This document shows, piece after piece, positions 35,823-46,291 of a stretch of 64,000 nucleotides of DNA (positions within the stretch are counted from its first letter, which is position 1; every line of letters starts with the position of its first letter). The notes below the pieces were generated by a model, which was not told where the DNA came from, searched no databases, and saw only the letters and a program-made list of their open reading frames with translations. The translations under genes were made by a program, and so were the position numbers. The DNA comes from Alishewanella agri BL06. Lineage in GTDB: Bacteria; Pseudomonadota; Gammaproteobacteria; Enterobacterales; Alteromonadaceae. The stretch spans positions 91,493 to 155,492 of the forward strand of contig NZ_AKKU01000025.1 in assembly GCF_000272005.1 (NCBI RefSeq). The letters are read 5' to 3'.

Positions 35823-36797
35823 ATGCTACTAAAAAACTTTAACGTCCTGGTGTTAGATGACGTTATTCTAATGTGCGATTTTCTCTATGGCGTGGCCAAT
35901 AAAGTGCCGGGCTGCAAAGCTTTTAAAGCGCTGGATGCCAAAACCGCCAGCGAGATCCTGGAACATGAAACCATCGATTTATTAATCACCGATATAGAGC
36001 TAAAAGGGCCGAGTGGGCTCGACTTGCTGTCTCGGGTCCGCTCCGGTGCTTTTACCACCACGGCCCACGATATCCCGATTATTGTGTTCTCAGGCAATGC
36101 CTATCGGGAGCTGATTCAGCAATGTATTTTGTTTGACGTCAACGACTTTCTGGCGAAGCCGGTTTCGGCGGTGCAGCTCAGCAAAAAAATTCAACATCAT
36201 TTGCAGCATGAAAAGCTAATCCAGCCAGCTACCCATTATGCTGAAATGAAACAACGGTTGGAGGCGCCGAAAGAACCTAATGATGAAGAAGGGCAGCATC
36301 GTTTTCGGGTAGCAATAGTGCGGGAGCTGGAGCAAAAAGCCGAGCAAGAAGAGCAGGAGCTGGATGAGCAGGGTAATAAAGTCGAAAAACGCGATTTTCT
36401 GCACTGGCCAGAGGATGCGACCACTGGCTATTTTCAGCTGGATCGGCGTTTAAGAAATTTAGCCTATAACCTGAGCTGTTTTCATAATGTGTTTATCAAT
36501 AATTGCAAAACGGTAGCCATTGATGCCGAACGTAAGCGCGCCTGCGCCGCCGCTGACTATTTGATTCATATCGCTAAAACCATGCAGCAACGTGAGCAAC
36601 GCCCGGAGTTCTGGAGTATGTTACAGCAGCGACTACAAAAGCTGCAGGCGTTGATGGCGGAGCTGGCAGAAGTGAATGTAAAGCATCACAAGCAGGTGCT
36701 GGCATTACTAAAGAAGCTGGCCTATTGGTGGATGCAAACCTGTAACCGACCCTTGATTAATAAGACGGAAGCAGAAGATGAGCCAAGCCTGCACTGA
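35823..36797 (+). CDS. Response regulator with unusual helical output domain
   Basis: 324 residues. The REC domain (~5-125) has the acidic pair in VLDDVIL, phospho-acceptor Asp57 in ITDIEL, Ser in VFSGNA and Lys in LAKPVS. Residues ~130-195 are highly charged (EQKAEQEEQELDEQ) and the last ~120 are helical with no recognised DNA-binding motif. I do not recognise the output. The ATG at 35823 has AAGGA 13 bases upstream; an in-frame TTG at 35790 is less likely. It overlaps the HPt gene by 20 bases and starts the six-gene signalling cluster. Confidence 0.82.
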   Translation: MLLKNFNVLVLDDVILMCDFLYGVANKVPGCKAFKALDAKTASEILEHETIDLLITDIELKGPSGLDLLSRVRSGAFTTTAHDIPIIVFSGNAYRELIQQCILFDVNDFLAKPVSAVQLSKKIQHHLQHEKLIQPATHYAEMKQRLEAPKEPNDEEGQHRFRVAIVRELEQKAEQEEQELDEQGNKVEKRDFLHWPEDATTGYFQLDRRLRNLAYNLSCFHNVFINNCKTVAIDAERKRACAAADYLIHIAKTMQQREQRPEFWSMLQQRLQKLQALMAELAEVNVKHHKQVLALLKKLAYWWMQTCNRPLINKTEAEDEPSLH

Positions 36798-37158
36798 GCT
36801 GGCAATTCTCGATCTTGCCATCCTGATCGAGATGTACGGTGACGATAGTCGGGAGACGTTAGAGAGTGCTCTAAGCGGTTTTTTGGCAGCCGCACCGCCC
36901 TATATTCAATCGATCAAAGAAGCGAGTGCAAGACGAGATCTTCCGGCCTTGTCCGCTGCCGCCCATAGCCTGAAAGGGATCGCCGCCCTTACCGGCGCCA
37001 CGCAGTTGGCTGCACTTTGCCGGCAGCTGGAGCTGGCCGCCCGGAATGCTGACGAACACGCGCTGGCCCCGTTGTTGGTCACTTTTTCGGACTGCTGGCA
37101 ACAATTACAGCAACAGCTGCGGCAACAACTTAAGCAATTAGGAGTAGCTGGTGTTTAA
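36778..37158 (+). CDS. Free-standing HPt phosphotransfer protein
   Basis: 126 residues forming a four-helix HPt domain. The phospho-acceptor His63 lies in AAHSLKGIAALTGA. It would shuttle phosphoryl groups between the histidine kinase and the REC domains encoded around it. Its start overlaps the upstream response regulator by 20 bases and its end overlaps the next REC gene by 8, so all three are translationally coupled. Confidence 0.9.
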   Translation: MSQACTELAILDLAILIEMYGDDSRETLESALSGFLAAAPPYIQSIKEASARRDLPALSAAAHSLKGIAALTGATQLAALCRQLELAARNADEHALAPLLVTFSDCWQQLQQQLRQQLKQLGVAGV

Positions 37159-37507
37159 CGTACTCTTTGTTGATGACGAGCTGTTATTGCTGGAGGCCTA
37201 TCGCCGTATGTTGCGCCAGAGTCCTTTTCAGTGTCATACCCTGACCGACAGTGCTCAGGTAATGGATTTTTTAAGCCAGCAGTCGGTAGATATTGTCGTC
37301 GCTGATCAGTTAATGCCGGCCCTGACCGGAGGCGAGCTGTTACAGCAGTTGGTTAAAAAACATCCGGCGATTAAGCGGGTATTAATCAGTGGCAACCTTA
37401 ACTTGGTAGAGCCGGCTGCCAGGGTGGCAGCCCACAGTTTGCTGGAGAAACCCTGTAGTAAGGCAGTATTACTCTCAACATTACAGGCGTTAATGGAGCC
37501 AGCATGA
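37151..37507 (+). CDS. Single-domain response regulator (REC only)
   Basis: 118 residues: VLFVDDELLLLEAYRRML, phospho-acceptor Asp52 in VADQLMP, LISGN and EKPCSK. It has no output domain, so it acts by protein contact or as a phosphate sink or relay. The REC type resembles those of RpfG-like proteins. The start is GTG inside the end of the HPt gene, and its stop overlaps the start of the 1594-residue protein (ATGA). Confidence 0.88.
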   Translation: MFNVLFVDDELLLLEAYRRMLRQSPFQCHTLTDSAQVMDFLSQQSVDIVVADQLMPALTGGELLQQLVKKHPAIKRVLISGNLNLVEPAARVAAHSLLEKPCSKAVLLSTLQALMEPA

Positions 37508-40500
37508 GAGGATTAATGCAAAATCGGTCTGCCCGCTTTTTTGGCCCCATGCTGGGTTACAGCTTATTTTATGCCAGTACCGCAGTATTATTACTCAGCG
37601 CGTTGACGGCTATTCTCGATCAGCTATTTCATGCTGATGCCGACAACTACACCGTGATTTTACCTTTTTCTTCACTGCTGCTGTTTTCCTATTTGGTCTT
37701 ATTGCTAGTGGCGGTTATTACCAGAAAATGGCAATTGGTTGCGGTGTGCTGGCTACTGTTACTGGGTTATCTGCTGAGTCAGAGCCTGATTGCTGAGCCG
37801 ACACAGCAGTTAGAAACTCCGCCCTTACAATACCTGGCTTGGGGCTTATTACTTCTGGGTTGGCTGGGCTGGCTGGGTAAAAAGCAACGCTGGAGTGCTT
37901 ATCTGGCACTGCTGTGTCATCTGCTATTACTGATACTGGTGGTTGCCGTGATTTGGCAAGACACCGGTACCTTGTTTGGTTACGCCTTCGGTGTTTCCCC
38001 CTCTGTCGCGATGAATTCGGCTATTTTATTACTATTTGCGGCTATTGCTGGCTTAAGTGCGCGCTTTAGTGGTCGCTTTCGCTGGCAGGAACAGCGTGGT
38101 AATCCGGGCAGTTGGTTGGCACTGCTATTAGCCAGTTTTGCGGTCTTGCTCTGGCTGAATTTTATGCACCAGTTAGGGCAAGTAAAAAGAGATGTGATTG
38201 ATAACACCTTGTCCGCCTTTCAACAGCAACTAAATCAGGTTTTTAATGAGCAACAAGGCTTGATCTATCGCTTAGCCGATCGCCTGGCCAGTTCAGAAAC
38301 CCCTTACAGTGCCAAACAACTCGAGTTGGAGCTAAGCAGTTATCTGCGAGATTTTGCCTATCTCGATTATCTGGCAATCATCAATACCAACAATGAATTA
38401 CAATTATCGATTAGCGACAGTGATGAAGATCGGCGCTGGTTTGATCAATACCTAAGTGTTGCTAAGCCAGTACCCTCAGTATTAGCAAGCAACAGCCGCC
38501 GTCCGGAGGTTGGTTTTTATTATGATAGCCGGGTTGACCATACTTTTGTGCGGGCGTTGCTGCCACAGCCCAATGCCTCGGCGCTGCGTGAGGTAGTGGC
38601 CAGTCTGAATTTTCGTGACGTGATCACCAAACTATTGCCGGTGATGGTCGCACCGGGCTACGCGGTGCAGGTGGCGTATCAGGACTTGCCCGAGCCGTTA
38701 ATCGACCAGCGTCAGGCTGAGCGGCAATATTTTTTACTCGGCGAATATCCGGTAGTGTTATTCGGCGACTTAGAATGGCGGTTGCAGCTTTATCGTGATC
38801 TAGACAGTGAACTGGATTTTGTGCGGCAGATTGCCGAAGTCGTGCTGCTGGCCGGTTGGCTGGTGGTGGTGCTGGCCCTGCTCAGTCAACAGTATCAGCG
38901 TTTATTGCAACGCCAGCAAAGCCGTTTATTAACGTCAAACCGTCGCACTCAGCATAGTCTTGGCATCCAACGCCGTTTGCAGTTACAGCATCAACAGATT
39001 ATGGATAACTCCGGCGATATTCTCTGTATGGTCGACCAGCAAGGTCACTTTCTGGAGTTAAGTCGATCCTGTGAGTGGGTGTTGGGGTATACCCCAGCAG
39101 AGCTGACCGGCCGCGCCTTTATGGATTTTGTGCATCCCGACGATCATGTGCTTACCGAGCAGGAAGCCAACAATATTATCAATGGCCAGCGTACCGAGTA
39201 TTTCCGTAATCGTTATCTGCGTAAAGATGGCAAAATTGTCTACCTGATGTGGTCGGCGCGTTATGTGCCCAGTCTTGGCATTATGTACGCGGTGGCGCGG
39301 GATGTTACCGGACTGGTAAAAGCAGAGCAGTTGCAGCAAGCCCAACAGCAAGTCCTGCGGTTAATCTCTAATGAACAACCGCTGGCAGAGATTATCCAAC
39401 AGATTTGTTTGCTGGCGGAGCGGCAAAATCCTGTTTTTCGGGCCAGCATGATGCTTAAAGTCGGGGAGCAGTTAGAAATGATTGCGGCACCGTCGTTTAG
39501 CGAAGCCTACCGCGAATTTTTTGCCACCTTACCGATTGCCGACAACACCGGGTCTTGCGGTACTGCGGCCTTTCAAAAGAGTCTGGTCATTGTCGAAAAT
39601 ATCGCTACCGATCCCAAATGGCAGCGCGGTGCTGCGGTAGCACTGGCCGAGCAGGTAAAGGCATGTTGGGCCATTCCGATGGTCTCACTACAGGATGAGG
39701 TGCTGGGCACCTTTGCCGTCTATTGTACGGAAGCCAGAGCGCCGTCGGGTGAGGAGTTGGAGTTATTGCTCAGCTGTAGCCGTTTTGCGGCGATGGCGAT
39801 TGAGCGCGCCCAGCAAAAGCGGCTACTGACTGAGAGTGAGCAGCGTTTTCGCTCGTTGTATCAATATAATCCAGACCCGGTCTATGTGTTGAGCGAGAGC
39901 GGATTCTTTAGTCAGATTAATGCTGCCGGTTGCCGGTTGCTAGAGTGGACTGAGGCGGAGCTGAAGCAAATGCATTTTAGCCGGGTAATTTTACCGGAGC
40001 AGTTGTCGGAAGTGGCCGGCTATTTCGCCCGGGCGTTGGCGGGTGAAGCGGTAAGCTTTGAAGCCAGTATTCTGAATCACAGCGGCCAGCAGCTGGAATT
40101 ACAGATCACCATCGTACCAACCCATATTGATGGCCGGATTGCCGGGGTGATTGGCATGGCCAAGGACGTGACGCAGCGACTACAAACCGAGAAGCAATTA
40201 CGGTTATATAAGCGGGCGGTGGATGCCAGCTCCAGCGGCGTAGTGATTGCAGACATTACCTGGCCGGATATGCCGGTAACCTACGTTAATTATGCCTTTG
40301 AGCGCCTGACCGGTTATAGCAGTGATGAGGCCATTGGTCACAACTGCCGTTTCTTGCAAGGCACTGAGCGTGATGAATTAGCCATTAAACAAATTCGCCA
40401 TGCGATAGCCGCACGCCAGGAATGCAGTGTAGTACTAAAAAACTACCGTAAAGATGGCAGTATTTTCTGGAATAACCTGTTCCTGGCGCCTGTGCCGGAT

Positions 40501-42288
40501 GAGCAAGGGGTCATCACGCACTATATTGGCATTCAAACCGATATTACCGCGCAAAAAAATTATGAGCAGGAACTTGCCTATAATGCCTCCTACGATTTAC
40601 TGACTGGTTTGCCCAATCGCAGTCTGCTTAAAGATCGTCTGACCCAAAGTTGTAAAATCAGTGCCCGGCATCAGGAAAAGGTGGCAGTGCTGTTTATTGA
40701 TTTAGATGGCTTTAAACTGATTAACGATAGTAAAGGCCACGCCGTAGGCGATGAGGTGTTACGGCAAATCAGTTATCGTTTAAAGGCCGAACTGCGCGCT
40801 GGTGATACGCTGGCGCGGTTGGGTGGTGATGAATTTGTATTAATGGTTCCTGATCTGCGGGAAACTGAGGCCTTAAATGCCTTAGCGCAGCACTTACTGA
40901 CTATTATCGCACGGCCGATCCTCGTCGAGGAACAGGAATTACAAATCACTGCCAGTATTGGTATCAGCCTGACCGATAATGCCTTTGACGAACCCATGCA
41001 GCTGGTGCAACAGGCCGACCTAGCGATGTATCAGGCTAAATTGCAAGGCCGTAATAACTATCAGTGGTATCAGGCGGAAATGGAAACCAGTCTGAACAAG
41101 CGCCTGAATTTACGCGCTATGTTGAAAAAGGCGGTCGCTAATCAGGAGTTTGTACTGTATTACCAACCGCAGGTTGAAGCGGGTAGCGGCCGCTTAATTG
41201 GTTTAGAAGCCCTGCTGCGTTGGCCACACCCAGAGCATGGCATGATAGGTCCGGATGAATTTATTCCGGTGGCTGAAGAAACCGGACTAATAGTGGAGAT
41301 CGGGCAGTGGGTGATTGAGCAAGCGGCGGCCTTTAATGCGTCATTGCAACAACGTGGTATTGCGCATCTGGTGATGGCGGTGAATCTGTCCTCACTGCAA
41401 TTCCAGCGCCCTGGCTTTGTCGAACAGTTACAGCAAACACTGCAACAGCAGCAGTTGGCACCGCGTTGGTTTGAGCTAGAGTTAACCGAGTCATTGTTAC
41501 TACAAAATATTGAGCAGGTGGTGACCAAGTTACAGCAACTAAAGAAACTGGCGGTAAGTATTGCCATTGACGACTTTGGTACCGGCTATTCCAGCCTCAG
41601 TTATCTAAAACGGTTACCGATTAATAAACTGAAGATTGACCGCAGCTTTATCCGTGAGTTAGTGACTGATCAGCGCGATGCCGCCATCAGCCGCGCCATT
41701 ATTGCAATGGCGCATCAGCTCGGGGTCAGGGTAGTAGCGGAAGGCGTTGAAACCGAAGCCCAGGCCAGCTTCCTGGCCAAAAGTTTATGCGACGAGTTAC
41801 AAGGCTACTACTTTGCCCGGCCAATGCCGGGGGCACAGCTGGAGCAGTTTCTGATCCGCTATGCCCCGGTGAGTCATAATACTGCGGCAACACAGCAAAC
41901 CTTGTTGCTGGTTGATGATGAAGAAAATATTTTGCACTCGCTAAAACGGTTGCTGCGCAAAGAGCCGTATCAGGTACTCAGTTGCAGCAGTGCCGCAGAA
42001 GCCCTGGAATTGCTGGCAATACATCAGGTGCAGGTGATTATTTCGGACCAGCGGATGCCGGAGATGAATGGCACTGAGTTTTTAAGCCGGGTCAAAGAAA
42101 TGTATCCGGATACCGTGCGGATCGTGCTGTCTGGTTATACTGATTTACGTTCGGTTACCGAAGCAATTAACCGCGGTGCTATCTATAAGTTTATGACCAA
42201 ACCCTGGCAGGATGATGAGTTAAAAACGGAGATTGCTGCGGCGTTCCGGCGCTATCGCGAGCAGCATCTGCAGAGTGCTGGCGAGTAA
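37504..42288 (+). CDS. Giant membrane sensor: 7TM-like/periplasmic sensor-PAS-GAF-PAS-LOV-GGDEF-EAL-REC
   Basis: 1594 residues. Several membrane segments fill ~15-220, then a periplasmic domain (~235-440) and a last helix (~442-465). The cytoplasmic part reads PAS (~495-605), GAF (~612-775), PAS (~780-895), a LOV-type PAS (~900-1015), GGDEF (~1020-1190), EAL (~1205-1455) and REC (~1463-1585). The LOV domain has GHNCRFLQG with photoactive Cys948, plus the flavin-contact residues in NYRKDGSIFWNN and GIQTD. GGDEF is intact at 1107-1111 with an RAGD inhibitory site; EAL keeps E1235 in LEALLRW and DDFGTGYSS. The REC acceptor is Asp1515. Predicted to turn light, membrane and phosphorelay signals into c-di-GMP changes. 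Confidence 0.92.
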   Translation: MRGLMQNRSARFFGPMLGYSLFYASTAVLLLSALTAILDQLFHADADNYTVILPFSSLLLFSYLVLLLVAVITRKWQLVAVCWLLLLGYLLSQSLIAEPTQQLETPPLQYLAWGLLLLGWLGWLGKKQRWSAYLALLCHLLLLILVVAVIWQDTGTLFGYAFGVSPSVAMNSAILLLFAAIAGLSARFSGRFRWQEQRGNPGSWLALLLASFAVLLWLNFMHQLGQVKRDVIDNTLSAFQQQLNQVFNEQQGLIYRLADRLASSETPYSAKQLELELSSYLRDFAYLDYLAIINTNNELQLSISDSDEDRRWFDQYLSVAKPVPSVLASNSRRPEVGFYYDSRVDHTFVRALLPQPNASALREVVASLNFRDVITKLLPVMVAPGYAVQVAYQDLPEPLIDQRQAERQYFLLGEYPVVLFGDLEWRLQLYRDLDSELDFVRQIAEVVLLAGWLVVVLALLSQQYQRLLQRQQSRLLTSNRRTQHSLGIQRRLQLQHQQIMDNSGDILCMVDQQGHFLELSRSCEWVLGYTPAELTGRAFMDFVHPDDHVLTEQEANNIINGQRTEYFRNRYLRKDGKIVYLMWSARYVPSLGIMYAVARDVTGLVKAEQLQQAQQQVLRLISNEQPLAEIIQQICLLAERQNPVFRASMMLKVGEQLEMIAAPSFSEAYREFFATLPIADNTGSCGTAAFQKSLVIVENIATDPKWQRGAAVALAEQVKACWAIPMVSLQDEVLGTFAVYCTEARAPSGEELELLLSCSRFAAMAIERAQQKRLLTESEQRFRSLYQYNPDPVYVLSESGFFSQINAAGCRLLEWTEAELKQMHFSRVILPEQLSEVAGYFARALAGEAVSFEASILNHSGQQLELQITIVPTHIDGRIAGVIGMAKDVTQRLQTEKQLRLYKRAVDASSSGVVIADITWPDMPVTYVNYAFERLTGYSSDEAIGHNCRFLQGTERDELAIKQIRHAIAARQECSVVLKNYRKDGSIFWNNLFLAPVPDEQGVITHYIGIQTDITAQKNYEQELAYNASYDLLTGLPNRSLLKDRLTQSCKISARHQEKVAVLFIDLDGFKLINDSKGHAVGDEVLRQISYRLKAELRAGDTLARLGGDEFVLMVPDLRETEALNALAQHLLTIIARPILVEEQELQITASIGISLTDNAFDEPMQLVQQADLAMYQAKLQGRNNYQWYQAEMETSLNKRLNLRAMLKKAVANQEFVLYYQPQVEAGSGRLIGLEALLRWPHPEHGMIGPDEFIPVAEETGLIVEIGQWVIEQAAAFNASLQQRGIAHLVMAVNLSSLQFQRPGFVEQLQQTLQQQQLAPRWFELELTESLLLQNIEQVVTKLQQLKKLAVSIAIDDFGTGYSSLSYLKRLPINKLKIDRSFIRELVTDQRDAAISRAIIAMAHQLGVRVVAEGVETEAQASFLAKSLCDELQGYYFARPMPGAQLEQFLIRYAPVSHNTAATQQTLLLVDDEENILHSLKRLLRKEPYQVLSCSSAAEALELLAIHQVQVIISDQRMPEMNGTEFLSRVKEMYPDTVRIVLSGYTDLRSVTEAINRGAIYKFMTKPWQDDELKTEIAAAFRRYREQHLQSAGE

Positions 42289-42301
42289 CGGAGCAGACAA
42301 G

Positions 42302-43126
42302 GTGGCAGATCAGGACATCAGGGTATTAAAGCAGCAGCTGGCTGAGCTTACCGAGCAATTAGTACGCTCAGAAAAATTGGCCTCAATTGGCCAGCTGGCG
42401 GCAGGCGTCGCGCATGAAATTAATAATCCTATCGGCTATGTCGCGTCTAATCTGGCAGTACTAAAAGACTATACCAATAGCCTGACGCTGTTGGTGCAGC
42501 GCTTAAGCGAGCAGCTACCGCCGGCGCAAAGTCAGTTGCTAAAAAGCCAGTTTGACTTTGATTATATCTGCGAGGATTTACCCAATTTATTGCAGCAATC
42601 TGAGCAGGGCTTGCAACGGGTGATTGAAATTATCCGCGATTTAAAAGACTTTTCGCATATCGATCAGGCCGAGTTTGTCATGGCCGATCTGCAGCAGGGG
42701 ATCCTGAGCACCCTGAATATTGTTGCCAATGAAATTAAATATAAAGCTGAAGTGGTGAAGCAGTTTGCCGAATTGCCGCCGGTATTTTGTATTCCGTCGC
42801 AGCTGAATCAGGTATTGCTGAATTTACTGGTGAATGCCGCCCAGGCAATTGTCGATCGTGGCATTATTACCATCAGTACCGGCTGCGACGCGCAGTGGGT
42901 GTGGTTTAGTGTTGCCGATACCGGACCGGGCATAGCAGCAGAGCAATTAGAGCAAATCTTTCAGCCTTTTTATACCACCAAGCCAAAAGGTCAGGGCACT
43001 GGCCTCGGCTTGGCGTTATCGCGCAGCATTGTGGAAAAACATAAAGGGTTATTAGAGGTACAGAGTACGCCTGGCGTTGGCAGCTGTTTTACCGTCAAGA
43101 TCCCACGTACTGTTACAAGTCCATAA
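42302..43126 (+). CDS. Soluble histidine kinase with N-terminal coiled coil
   Basis: 274 residues, no membrane segment. A short coiled coil (~8-30) leads to the H-box GVAHEINNPIGYVASNL with His38. The HATPase domain shows LNLLVNAAQA (N), DTGPG (G1), FYTTKPKGQGTGLGL (F/G2). With no sensor of its own, it probably takes signals from partner proteins. The start is GTG 42302 with GGAG 8 bases upstream, 13 bases after the giant sensor. It is the likely phosphodonor for the HPt and REC proteins of the cluster. Confidence 0.9.
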   Translation: MADQDIRVLKQQLAELTEQLVRSEKLASIGQLAAGVAHEINNPIGYVASNLAVLKDYTNSLTLLVQRLSEQLPPAQSQLLKSQFDFDYICEDLPNLLQQSEQGLQRVIEIIRDLKDFSHIDQAEFVMADLQQGILSTLNIVANEIKYKAEVVKQFAELPPVFCIPSQLNQVLLNLLVNAAQAIVDRGIITISTGCDAQWVWFSVADTGPGIAAEQLEQIFQPFYTTKPKGQGTGLGLALSRSIVEKHKGLLEVQSTPGVGSCFTVKIPRTVTSP

Positions 43127-43216
43127 GCTTGCCACTTTTCTACCTCTTTAGTAGTAAAAAAGACGACTCTGAACTAAGTTTGTTTAGACTTTAATCGTTT
43201 AGGGGAAACATCAAGG

Positions 43217-43720
43217 ATGAACCTGTGTATACAAACGGAAACGCTATCCTGGTTAACGTTAGGTCCACAAAAAAATACATCAGAGCTCTGGCCGGCCCGG
43301 GCCAGTTTAATCTTATTTAGCCCAGACCGCTTAGATCAGGCGCACCACTTCAATGAACTACCTATTTCGGGGCTGATTACTGAGCGCTTTCAGCAGTTTT
43401 TACAACAGCAGCTGGAGGTAGGAGAGAAGTTGCTGTTTAACCCGGATCAGGAAGAATGGTTAGTGATCACCTTGCGGCCACTCGCTGCAGCCAGAGAATT
43501 TGCCGAGCAGTTGCGCTGGCAGTTAGCTGATTCGGAATTGCTTTCTATTCAAAGCCGGGCATTGACGTGCAGCTTTGCGGTGAGTTTTTACGAGCAGCTG
43601 TCACAGGTGCAATTGGCGCTGGAGGAGCTGCAGGCCTTACTGTTGCAGGCTAAACTGATGGGGCCTGATTCGTTGTTGTGTAGCTTTCGCCAACCTGCTT
43701 ACAGGCCGTCTAAACGTTAG
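43217..43720 (+). CDS. Small degenerate GGDEF-like protein
   Basis: 167 residues. The C-terminal third resembles the end of a GGDEF domain: CSFAVSFYEQLSQVQ takes the place of the usual T-x-SIG-V strand, and LQALLLQAKLMGPDSL resembles the terminal AD-AL-xAK-xGRN helix. The catalytic GGDEF motif and the nucleotide-binding residues are absent, so no enzyme activity is expected. It may be a decoy or adaptor. Lying 90 bases after the kinase gene, it may have its own promoter. Confidence 0.55.
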   Translation: MNLCIQTETLSWLTLGPQKNTSELWPARASLILFSPDRLDQAHHFNELPISGLITERFQQFLQQQLEVGEKLLFNPDQEEWLVITLRPLAAAREFAEQLRWQLADSELLSIQSRALTCSFAVSFYEQLSQVQLALEELQALLLQAKLMGPDSLLCSFRQPAYRPSKR

Positions 43721-44329: not shown

Positions 44330-46291
44330 ATGCAGCAAGTTATCCGCGATTTATCCATCGGTCGTAAGTTAATGCTGTTACTCAGTTTACCGGTGCTGTT
44401 ATTACTGTGGCTGGCCAGTAGCCAACTAATGAACCGGCTGCAGGAGGTGCAGGTGGCACAGCAGGTAGGCGAAGCAATAGAGGTCAGTGTGGCGATGGGC
44501 GAGCTAATTGGCGCGTTGCAAGCGGAGCGTGGCGCCAGTGGCGTGGTGATCAATAGTCAGGGGCAACGCTTTACTGACCGGTTGCGTCAGTTACGGCAAA
44601 GCAGTGACCAGCAGCTGGCTCGCTTTCAACAGCACCGCCAGCCGGAGGTATTACAGCTACAGCAACGTTTTAGCGAATTAACTGCACTGCGCCAGCAAGT
44701 GGATAGCTTTGGCATTAGCGCCAACCAATCGGCAGAGCGTTACACCAGTCTGATCCGGGCATTAATGGATTTTAACCAACAGTTAGAAGCCGGCCTGACC
44801 CATCTGGCGATGGCCAGACAACTGAATTTACTTAACCAGTTTATTGAAATGAAAGAGCGCGCCGGGCGTGAACGAGCGATCCTCGGTTTGGCATTTAGTC
44901 GTAATAGCTTTACCCCTGAATTATTAACCCGCTTTACCAATAACCTCGGCGCCTTTAATGCTTACGAAGAGAACTTCTTAAAAGCACTGGCACCAGCACA
45001 GCTGCAACGGGTGCAAGCCATACAGCAGGATCCGAGCTTTGCCGAGGTCAGCCGGTTACAGCAGTTGGCTTTTACCGTGCCGCTTGGCGAGGCATTGGGT
45101 GTTGATGATGGTGCCTGGTTTGATATAGCCAGCCGCCGGATCAACCAACTTACGACCTATGAGCGGGAGTTAAGTGCTGAGATTGCAGCCCAAGCCAAGG
45201 TGCTGGCCGCACAAGCCCGGCAGAGCCTGGTGATGCTGGCGCTGGTCATTTTGTTGGCCTTGACGGCTGTAGGCATATTGACCGTGCTGATTGCCCGGAA
45301 TATCCGTTTGGCGGTACAGGAAATTGAGCGGGTTATGACGGCACTGGCGAAGCGGGATTTGACACAACGCAGCCAATATCAGGGGCGGGATGAGTTTGGC
45401 CGTATCGCCCTGTATGCCAACAATATGGCCGATGAGCTGCAAGGCGTGATGCAGGAAATTGGTTCGGCCACCGCGCAGGTCGCCACTGCAGCAGAGGAAT
45501 CTTCGGCCGTGACACTGCAAACCAGTAAAGGCGTGCAGCAACAGCAGCAGGACACGGAACTGGTCGCCACCGCGATGCATGAAATGAGTGCTACGGTGCG
45601 TGATGTCGCCAGCAGTACGGCTGAAGCGGCGGCCCTGTCAGAGCAAGTACAAAAAAATGCCGGTAGTGGTCAGCAAAAACTACAGCAGACGATCGCACTG
45701 ATTGAGCGCCTGGCACAGCAAGTCAGTGGTACCGCGCAGGTGATTGAACAGGTAAAACAGGATAGCAATGCCATTAGCTCAGTGCTGGATGTGATCCGCG
45801 GCATCGCTGAACAAACCAACTTGCTCGCGTTAAATGCGGCGATTGAGGCGGCCCGTGCCGGCGAACAAGGTCGGGGCTTTGCCGTAGTGGCAGATGAAGT
45901 TCGTACCCTGGCGCAGCGCACCGCCAAATCAACCGGCGAAATTCAGCGCATGATTGAGGGCTTACAACAAGGGTCAGTCAAGGCGTCTGAAGCCATGCGT
46001 TTAAGCTTGCAGCAAGCCGAAGAGGGTACCAGTAATGTCAATGAAACCGGCCGTATTCTGCGTGAAGTACTGGAAGGGATCAGTGGTATTAATGATAAAA
46101 ATATCCAGATTGCCTCTGCTGCTGAAGAACAGACCACAGTGGCTGATGAAATCAATCAGAAAGTGCTGAGTATCAGCGATGTGGCGGTACAAACCAGCGC
46201 CGGCGCCGAACAAACCGCGGTGACCAGTCGCGAACTGGCAAGATTGGCGGAGCAGTTAGAATCCCTAATTGGCCGCTTTAAATTAGCCTAA
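44330..46291 (+). CDS. Methyl-accepting chemotaxis protein with NIT nitrate/nitrite sensor domain
   Basis: 653 residues. A membrane helix at ~12-31, a periplasmic NIT domain (~45-290) with the signature [16 protein letters not shown], a second helix (~300-322), HAMP (~323-376) and a full MCP signalling domain with tip [23 protein letters not shown] domains of chemoreceptors such as P. aeruginosa McpN bind nitrate, so taxis to nitrate is likely. AGAGG precedes the ATG. A NarL-type heptamer pair upstream ties expression to nitrate, and a hairpin terminator follows. Confidence 0.92.

Follow-up and report, generated by a model that had tools for sequence, protein, structure and literature searches.

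Do the signalling genes packed around one LOV-domain protein in Alishewanella agri BL06 form a single system, where does that system end, and which signals would reach its cyclic di-GMP (c-di-GMP) enzyme? The genes stand in a stretch of 64,000 nucleotides (contig NZ_AKKU01000025.1, positions 91,493 to 155,492, of a 3.49-Mb genome), called the window below, whose own numbering is used throughout. They encode a response regulator (A), an HPt protein (B), a single-domain REC (C), a membrane sensor and c-di-GMP enzyme (D), a histidine kinase (E) and an orphan (F), and a sequence-only reading had taken all six as one LOV, phosphorelay and c-di-GMP cluster. We find that A to E are a genuine five-gene signalling unit, to which F does not belong. 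With a probability of about 0.5, D would act as an enzyme responding to light and to a further cue, and E would feed both the C-terminal REC of D and a relay running through C and B to A.

The five-gene unit and its limits

A was carried by 15 of the 31 genomes of the genus (genus, family, order and class are those of the window genome throughout), and the order A-B-C-D-E was kept in all 15, the window included. Inheritance is joint, with D and A occurring in the same 13 of 25 genus genomes, the window's among them. Scanning named genomes with A gave 13 loci, 12 of them with all five genes and in genomes that are among the 15. The names on these 12 were Alishewanella, Arsukibacterium, Rheinheimera or Gammaproteobacteria only, and the nearest named relative among the loci fetched was Alishewanella jeotgali, with a 97% identical protein A. 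The thirteenth locus, L033, from a metagenome-assembled genome of Rheinheimera sp. GS13, was more distant. A to E also stood in order in four genomes of another genus (L076-L079; E of L078 is cut at the contig end), and in three rearranged loci (L033, L036 and L075) A, B, C and E lay together with D facing them. The neighbourhood search for the gene set yielded 22 loci in all: the 15 of the genus, L076-L079 and the three rearranged ones. A divergent GGDEF-EAL protein of 811-828 amino acids adjoins A in 4/4 of the loci L076-L079.

Residues were compared in 17 loci and then in seven, two of them shared, which makes up the 22. Asp57 of A, His63 of B, Asp52 of C and Asp1515 of D were unchanged in 22/22 loci, and the phospho-acceptor His of E in all 21 with a complete E. 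The kinase, REC, HPt and REC of a full His-Asp-His-Asp relay, which the sequence-only reading had assembled, are present with invariant phospho-sites. The sites that it named in A, B and C were found by Pfam and locus alignment, and its 1594-residue D, with LOV Cys948, GGDEF, EAL and REC Asp1515, was recovered by Pfam and residue comparison. The GGDEF motif and the tested EAL catalytic positions were likewise unchanged in 22/22 loci, and the I-site Arg of the D GGDEF domain was replaced, by Gln, in L012 only.

Compared by tblastx (3.3 kb), the flanks of the 15 genus loci sorted into five dissimilar groups on the upstream side and six on the downstream side, so the conserved unit runs from A to E. 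The earlier picture of genes packed with overlaps is correct for A/B (20 bases), B/C (8) and C/D (4), but not for the last two genes: E, read from the GTG at 42302, follows D after a 13-base gap, and F starts 90 bases 3' of E. A longer TTG reading frame of E, from 42233, would overlap D. Promoter-like sites were at chance level in our scan (7 versus 8.8 expected). Terminator-like sites numbered 18 versus 10.0 expected; the scan placed none between E and F, and one on the + strand within F (43288-43305).

The same neighbourhoods were searched for the sixth gene. All 16 other loci compared lacked F, and the six-gene cluster was rejected on that count. No Pfam match to F was obtained at E<=0.1, and its sole match at E<=10 was Cas10 palm2 (0.15). 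Across 60 genomes F had, besides itself, weak matches only (best 2.6e-5), and in five loci from these matches the matching proteins also matched the GGDEF domain of D. Its description as a degenerate GGDEF protein is plausible from such matches, whereas its membership of the cluster did not hold; F is perhaps a local gain or a relic. Downstream, at 44330-46291, lies a chemoreceptor with a NIT domain (nitrate/nitrite sensing; Pfam), which among 13 loci was beside the cluster only in L009.

Table 1. Genes of the unit, domains of A and D, and gene F, in window coordinates
Feature	Position	Strand	Basis
A, response regulator, REC (Asp57) and helical C-terminal domain, 324 aa	35823..36797	+	Pfam Response_reg 1.2e-15
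A, C-terminal domain, predicted four helices	36396..36794	+	AlphaFold2 model, moderate confidence
B, HPt protein, His63	36778..37158	+	Pfam Hpt 1.2e-14
C, single-domain REC, Asp52	37151..37507	+	Pfam Response_reg 7.8e-18
D, membrane sensor / c-di-GMP enzyme with C-terminal REC, 1594 aa	37504..42288	+	Pfam
D, periplasmic dCache-like sensor, residues ~215-455	38146..38868	+	AlphaFold2 model mfb443a3cc178, Foldseek
D, GAF_2	39376..39804	+	Pfam 1.3e-13
D, LOV; Cys948 at 40345-40347	40192..40569	+	Matches to solved LOV domains
D, GGDEF with I-site RxxD	40585..41058	+	Pfam 4.3e-47
D, EAL	41116..41823	+	Pfam 4.6e-78
D, C-terminal REC, Asp1515	41902..42243	+	Pfam 7.6e-23
E, histidine kinase, His38 from GTG start	42302..43126	+	Pfam HATPase_c 5.2e-27, HisKA 2e-07
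F, orphan resembling part of a GGDEF domain; outside the conserved unit	43217..43720	+

Probable inputs and catalytic domains of protein D

LOV directly precedes the GGDEF-EAL pair in D, and the catalytic motifs are intact. GHNCRFLQG with Cys948 lies in the LOV region as first read and conforms to the GxNCRFLQ motif of LOV photoreceptors. The region matched solved LOV domains, with 5luv at the top (1.7e-35), and also 8c05, a sensor-domain diguanylate cyclase (1e-33). Two Asn and an active-site Gln are expected of LOV photoreceptors, and the window D holds N980, N990 and Q1011. Judged by its residues, the domain probably senses blue light. All but one of the 22 operon copies of D retained the Cys (14/15 in the genus and 7/7 of the further ones compared), the residue being Gly in L012. 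Searching the window genome with the D LOV region gave five matches at E<=1e-8, with GxNCRFLQ in D only. A second likely blue-light receptor in that genome is its one BLUF protein, with the BLUF domain in a 140-amino-acid frame (G000 C10:39116-39391, locus L091).

The linker between LOV and GGDEF, measured from the Asp of D(I/V)(T/S) to the Leu of DxLT, had 21 residues in 17/17 copies of D (13 by script, L017-L020 counted by eye), and the LOV signal would act through it on the GGDEF/EAL pair. Blue light represses the cyclase formed by a LOV-GGDEF fragment from a LOV-GGDEF-EAL protein of Mesorhizobium (PMC9098866; here and below, a PMC number stands for the part of that paper that was available), and the light state of SL2 hydrolyses c-di-GMP (PMC8846402). 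Two LOV-GGDEF truncations of LOV-GGDEF-EAL proteins that have a 21-residue linker, one of the two without the GGDEF residues, showed no cyclase under light control, and in those proteins light may act on EAL (PMC10396304). As these results agree with less c-di-GMP in blue light, we predict that blue light would lower c-di-GMP through D. We infer this sign by analogy with described LOV-GGDEF-EAL proteins, and predict flavin photochemistry for D.

A model of 525 N-terminal residues of D, beginning at the second Met (13 sequences, mean predicted local distance difference test score 75.3) comprised a helical membrane part and a domain that matched dCache sensors best in Foldseek. The top match of this periplasmic domain was the KinD sensor domain (1.5e-6), and the TM-scores of the dCache matches, by target length, were about 0.5-0.6. 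What these matches support of the periplasmic-ligand input claimed earlier is a periplasmic sensor with a dCache-like fold. Pfam also found PAS regions in D. The GAF_2 domain, credited with small-molecule sensing, is present in the window D, but GAF and PAS preceding LOV were missing from 2/15 genus orthologues, so that input is not general. Among the 15 orthologues the most conserved domain was the C-terminal REC (81.5% mean pairwise identity), followed by EAL (76.3), LOV (70.9) and GGDEF (70.8), with 42.8 for the periplasmic and 40.0 for the membrane part. The front end of D varies: the protein has 1039-1614 amino acids in L076-L079, and in L033 it reads REC-PAS-LOV-GGDEF-EAL-REC with no evident membrane part.

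Light-sensing and phospho-receiving features are parted in one genome, G018, which holds two copies of D. Its operon copy (L012) carries C948G, R949S, N980Q, N990C and Q1011L and retains REC. The solo copy (L021) has these five LOV residues intact and ends soon after EAL, before REC; BLAST detected no A, B or C in the 17-kb L021 region, and the kinase match there was weak (8e-08). Mean identity to the other 14 copies was 55.8% for the operon and 68.6% for the solo copy in LOV, 56.1 and 64.1 in GGDEF, and 66.0 and 67.9 in EAL. By their sequences, the two proteins of this one genome may have specialised, one for light and the other for phosphate, and as natural proteins they allow the light input and the phosphate input of D to be examined apart.

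Kinase E, the proposed relay and the proposed mechanism

The phospho-acceptor of E is His38, as previously noted, when the protein begins at GTG 42302, and Pfam found no sensor domain in the window's E, in keeping with its description as a sensorless kinase. Outside the genus E is longer (366-404 amino acids in L033, L036, L075-L077 and L079); Pfam found nothing in the N-terminal region of the longer E of L033. An origin of the C-terminal REC of D (D-REC) and E from a split hybrid kinase was rejected. Matches spanned both in G522, G589 and G448 and most of both in G491 and G543, and the G522 protein gave the E part only; at 34-41% identity these matches are too distant to prove a split, so pairing between neighbouring genes was used instead.

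Among 185 class genomes, 13 besides the window's had a D-REC match at E<=1e-40 among the matches listed. In 12 of these 13 (the exception being G550) an E-like kinase match was listed on the same contig, about 6 kb away or less. Regions were fetched from each of the 13, which are a selected and not a random sample. GGDEF-EAL-REC proteins were recognised by Pfam in L063, L065 and L066 and by eye in L064. In L064-L066 the D-REC-like REC forms the C-terminus of a GGDEF-EAL protein encoded close to the kinase; in L063 this placement rests on match coordinates. The partners in L062 are HDOD and HD-domain proteins. The LOV motif was not found in L061-L063, L065 and L066, the five of the 13 regions searched. 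That kinases and receivers of these kinds are neighbours elsewhere suggests D-REC as a further phosphorylation target of E. One 19-kb stretch of G522 (L073) encodes four or more E-like kinases together with several receivers resembling D-REC.

Since the window's E has no sensor domain that we could find, D might instead sense for it: D would bind E through D-REC and gate its autophosphorylation, and light would then alter both c-di-GMP and the phosphate on A. That E lies directly 3' of D, and that no other domain of D is as conserved as D-REC, would fit. However, the longer E outside the genus has an extra N-terminal region, and the operon D of G018 retains its relay genes beside a changed LOV site. 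A relay run by light in this way appears unlikely to us.

The C-terminal domain of A has no Pfam family. Ten-residue confidence means of its AlphaFold2 model were 57-80 over residues 201-310, and among the matches listed in a solved-structure profile search with A, REC alone matched. Profile A3, built on the domain, found 16 of 196 family genomes, three of these in the genus, and one of 321 class genomes, the window's own; a relative of A occurs in another family of the order (G102). Eight A loci lack the LOV unit (L037, L038 and L080-L085). The LOV motif was not found in any of them, and the idea that relatives of A always stand beside a LOV protein was rejected.

An HPt gene follows A in L037 and L080-L084 (BLAST; confirmed by Pfam in L037, L080, L082 and L083). 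Beside the A-B pair of L080, L082 and L083 the search detected no C-like gene, and a hybrid kinase with its own REC lies nearby, split in L080 over two overlapping open reading frames. A is followed directly by one histidine kinase-REC-HPt protein in L038, and by an HPt with a single-domain REC 3' of it in L037. From this gene content the order kinase, C, B, A was derived, and it suggests a relay from E through C and B to A. The top NCBIfam match of C, under its cut-off, was NF053512, a REC model that also matches D-REC. The A-HPt-REC triad of L037 faces chemosensory-looking genes (one MCP match, the rest by eye), perhaps another input to the same relay.

A free-standing REC can serve as a phosphate sink. 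C is such a REC, and A-B pairs exist without D and E; it is conceivable, if improbable, that no linear relay operates, E phosphorylating D-REC while C and B would drain phosphate and other kinases would feed A. Against this, the genes A, B and C overlap and have not been separated by the rearrangement in L033, L036 and L075, and in L038 kinase, REC and HPt form one chain directly after A.

In the mechanism that we favour, D would respond to a periplasmic cue by way of its dCache-like domain and, in all but rare copies, to blue light by way of LOV. The dedicated kinase E would phosphorylate D-REC, a second, phosphate input to D, and also the free REC C, from which phosphate would pass to the HPt B and on to the response regulator A, whose helical domain would act on a partner. 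We infer each phosphotransfer, its order and the action of A from comparisons of genes and loci. Several observations weigh against this mechanism. The unit is patchy, with 16 of 31 genus genomes lacking A, and the search for REC/kinase pairs scored nine candidates per genome only. The 50 listed Foldseek rows for A were driven by its REC. Three A loci do not follow the rule that C is missing where the kinase carries its own REC: L081 has both a C-like gene and a REC-bearing kinase, L084 has an A-B pair beside which the search detected no C and no kinase, and L085 has A without HPt and a GGDEF-EAL protein before it. Light is not essential, since one of the 22 operon D proteins has lost its LOV site. 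Three loci carry Leu in place of the LOV Gln; LOV domains with this exchange are still able to signal (PMC9098866). Two truncations with a 21-residue linker gave no light-regulated cyclase (PMC10396304), and in D as well light may act on EAL.

More tentatively, D would combine the roles of c-di-GMP switch and phospho-receiver for its own kinase, which would also drive a REC-HPt relay to the new A domain, giving a light- and ligand-gated system with two outputs. Equally tentative is the corresponding history, in which the unit would have been assembled from a class-wide pair of GGDEF/EAL-REC protein and kinase and a family-level A-B relay, the A domain being nearly confined to the family. Least probable is that LOV works in vivo as a flavin-based redox or oxygen sensor and not as a light sensor: the LOV protein RprR showed little rprR-dependent effect of blue light on transcription, with light-independent roles suggested (PMC12802281), and the LOV-like PAS of RmcA is needed for the phenazine response (PMC8846402), but 21 of 22 operon copies have preserved the adduct-forming Cys, something that a redox role would not necessarily require.

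Comparison with described systems

We found no description in the open-access literature of the five-gene set, of a C-terminal REC of D paired with E, or of the A domain. The claim that no described system has this composition appears to stand for the gene set but not for D, since proteins of its type, RprR and SL2, are described. ArcB and TorS belong to hybrid-kinase phosphorelays with a set of histidine kinase, REC, HPt and REC. The unit has the same set, and A and B show weak NCBIfam resemblance to such relays; it differs in having each part on a protein of its own and in the extra receiver that D-REC provides. HmrABCX of Caulobacter crescentus is, like the unit, a putative HPt phosphorelay affecting c-di-GMP and lifestyle, but with other genes and, in the available text, no LOV protein named (PMC11481889).

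GGDEF, alone or together with EAL, is present in about 18% of bacterial LOV proteins (PMC4844311). RprR (Rsp0254) of Ralstonia pseudosolanacearum, whose plan is the closest to D among those described, resembles it in combining a periplasmic Cache, PAS domains including LOV, GGDEF and EAL in one membrane protein, but the available account names neither a C-terminal REC nor a REC-HPt-REC-kinase set (PMC12802281). SL2 of Synechococcus elongatus shares the LOV-GGDEF-EAL order and is described as having just these domains, with no REC or relay named in the available text (PMC8846402). In the LOV-activated diguanylate cyclases (LadC), LOV is joined to GGDEF by a coiled-coil linker, and the 21 residues of the D linker equal the length of their short-linker class; a LadC is LOV-GGDEF, to which D adds EAL, REC, further sensors and a membrane part (PMC10396304). 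Because EAL and REC follow GGDEF, D is not a LadC. The parts of the unit are of known kinds and their combination appears undescribed; the output domain of A belongs to no Pfam family, and the proposed mechanism, if true, would show light, an outside ligand and a phosphorelay tied to one c-di-GMP enzyme.

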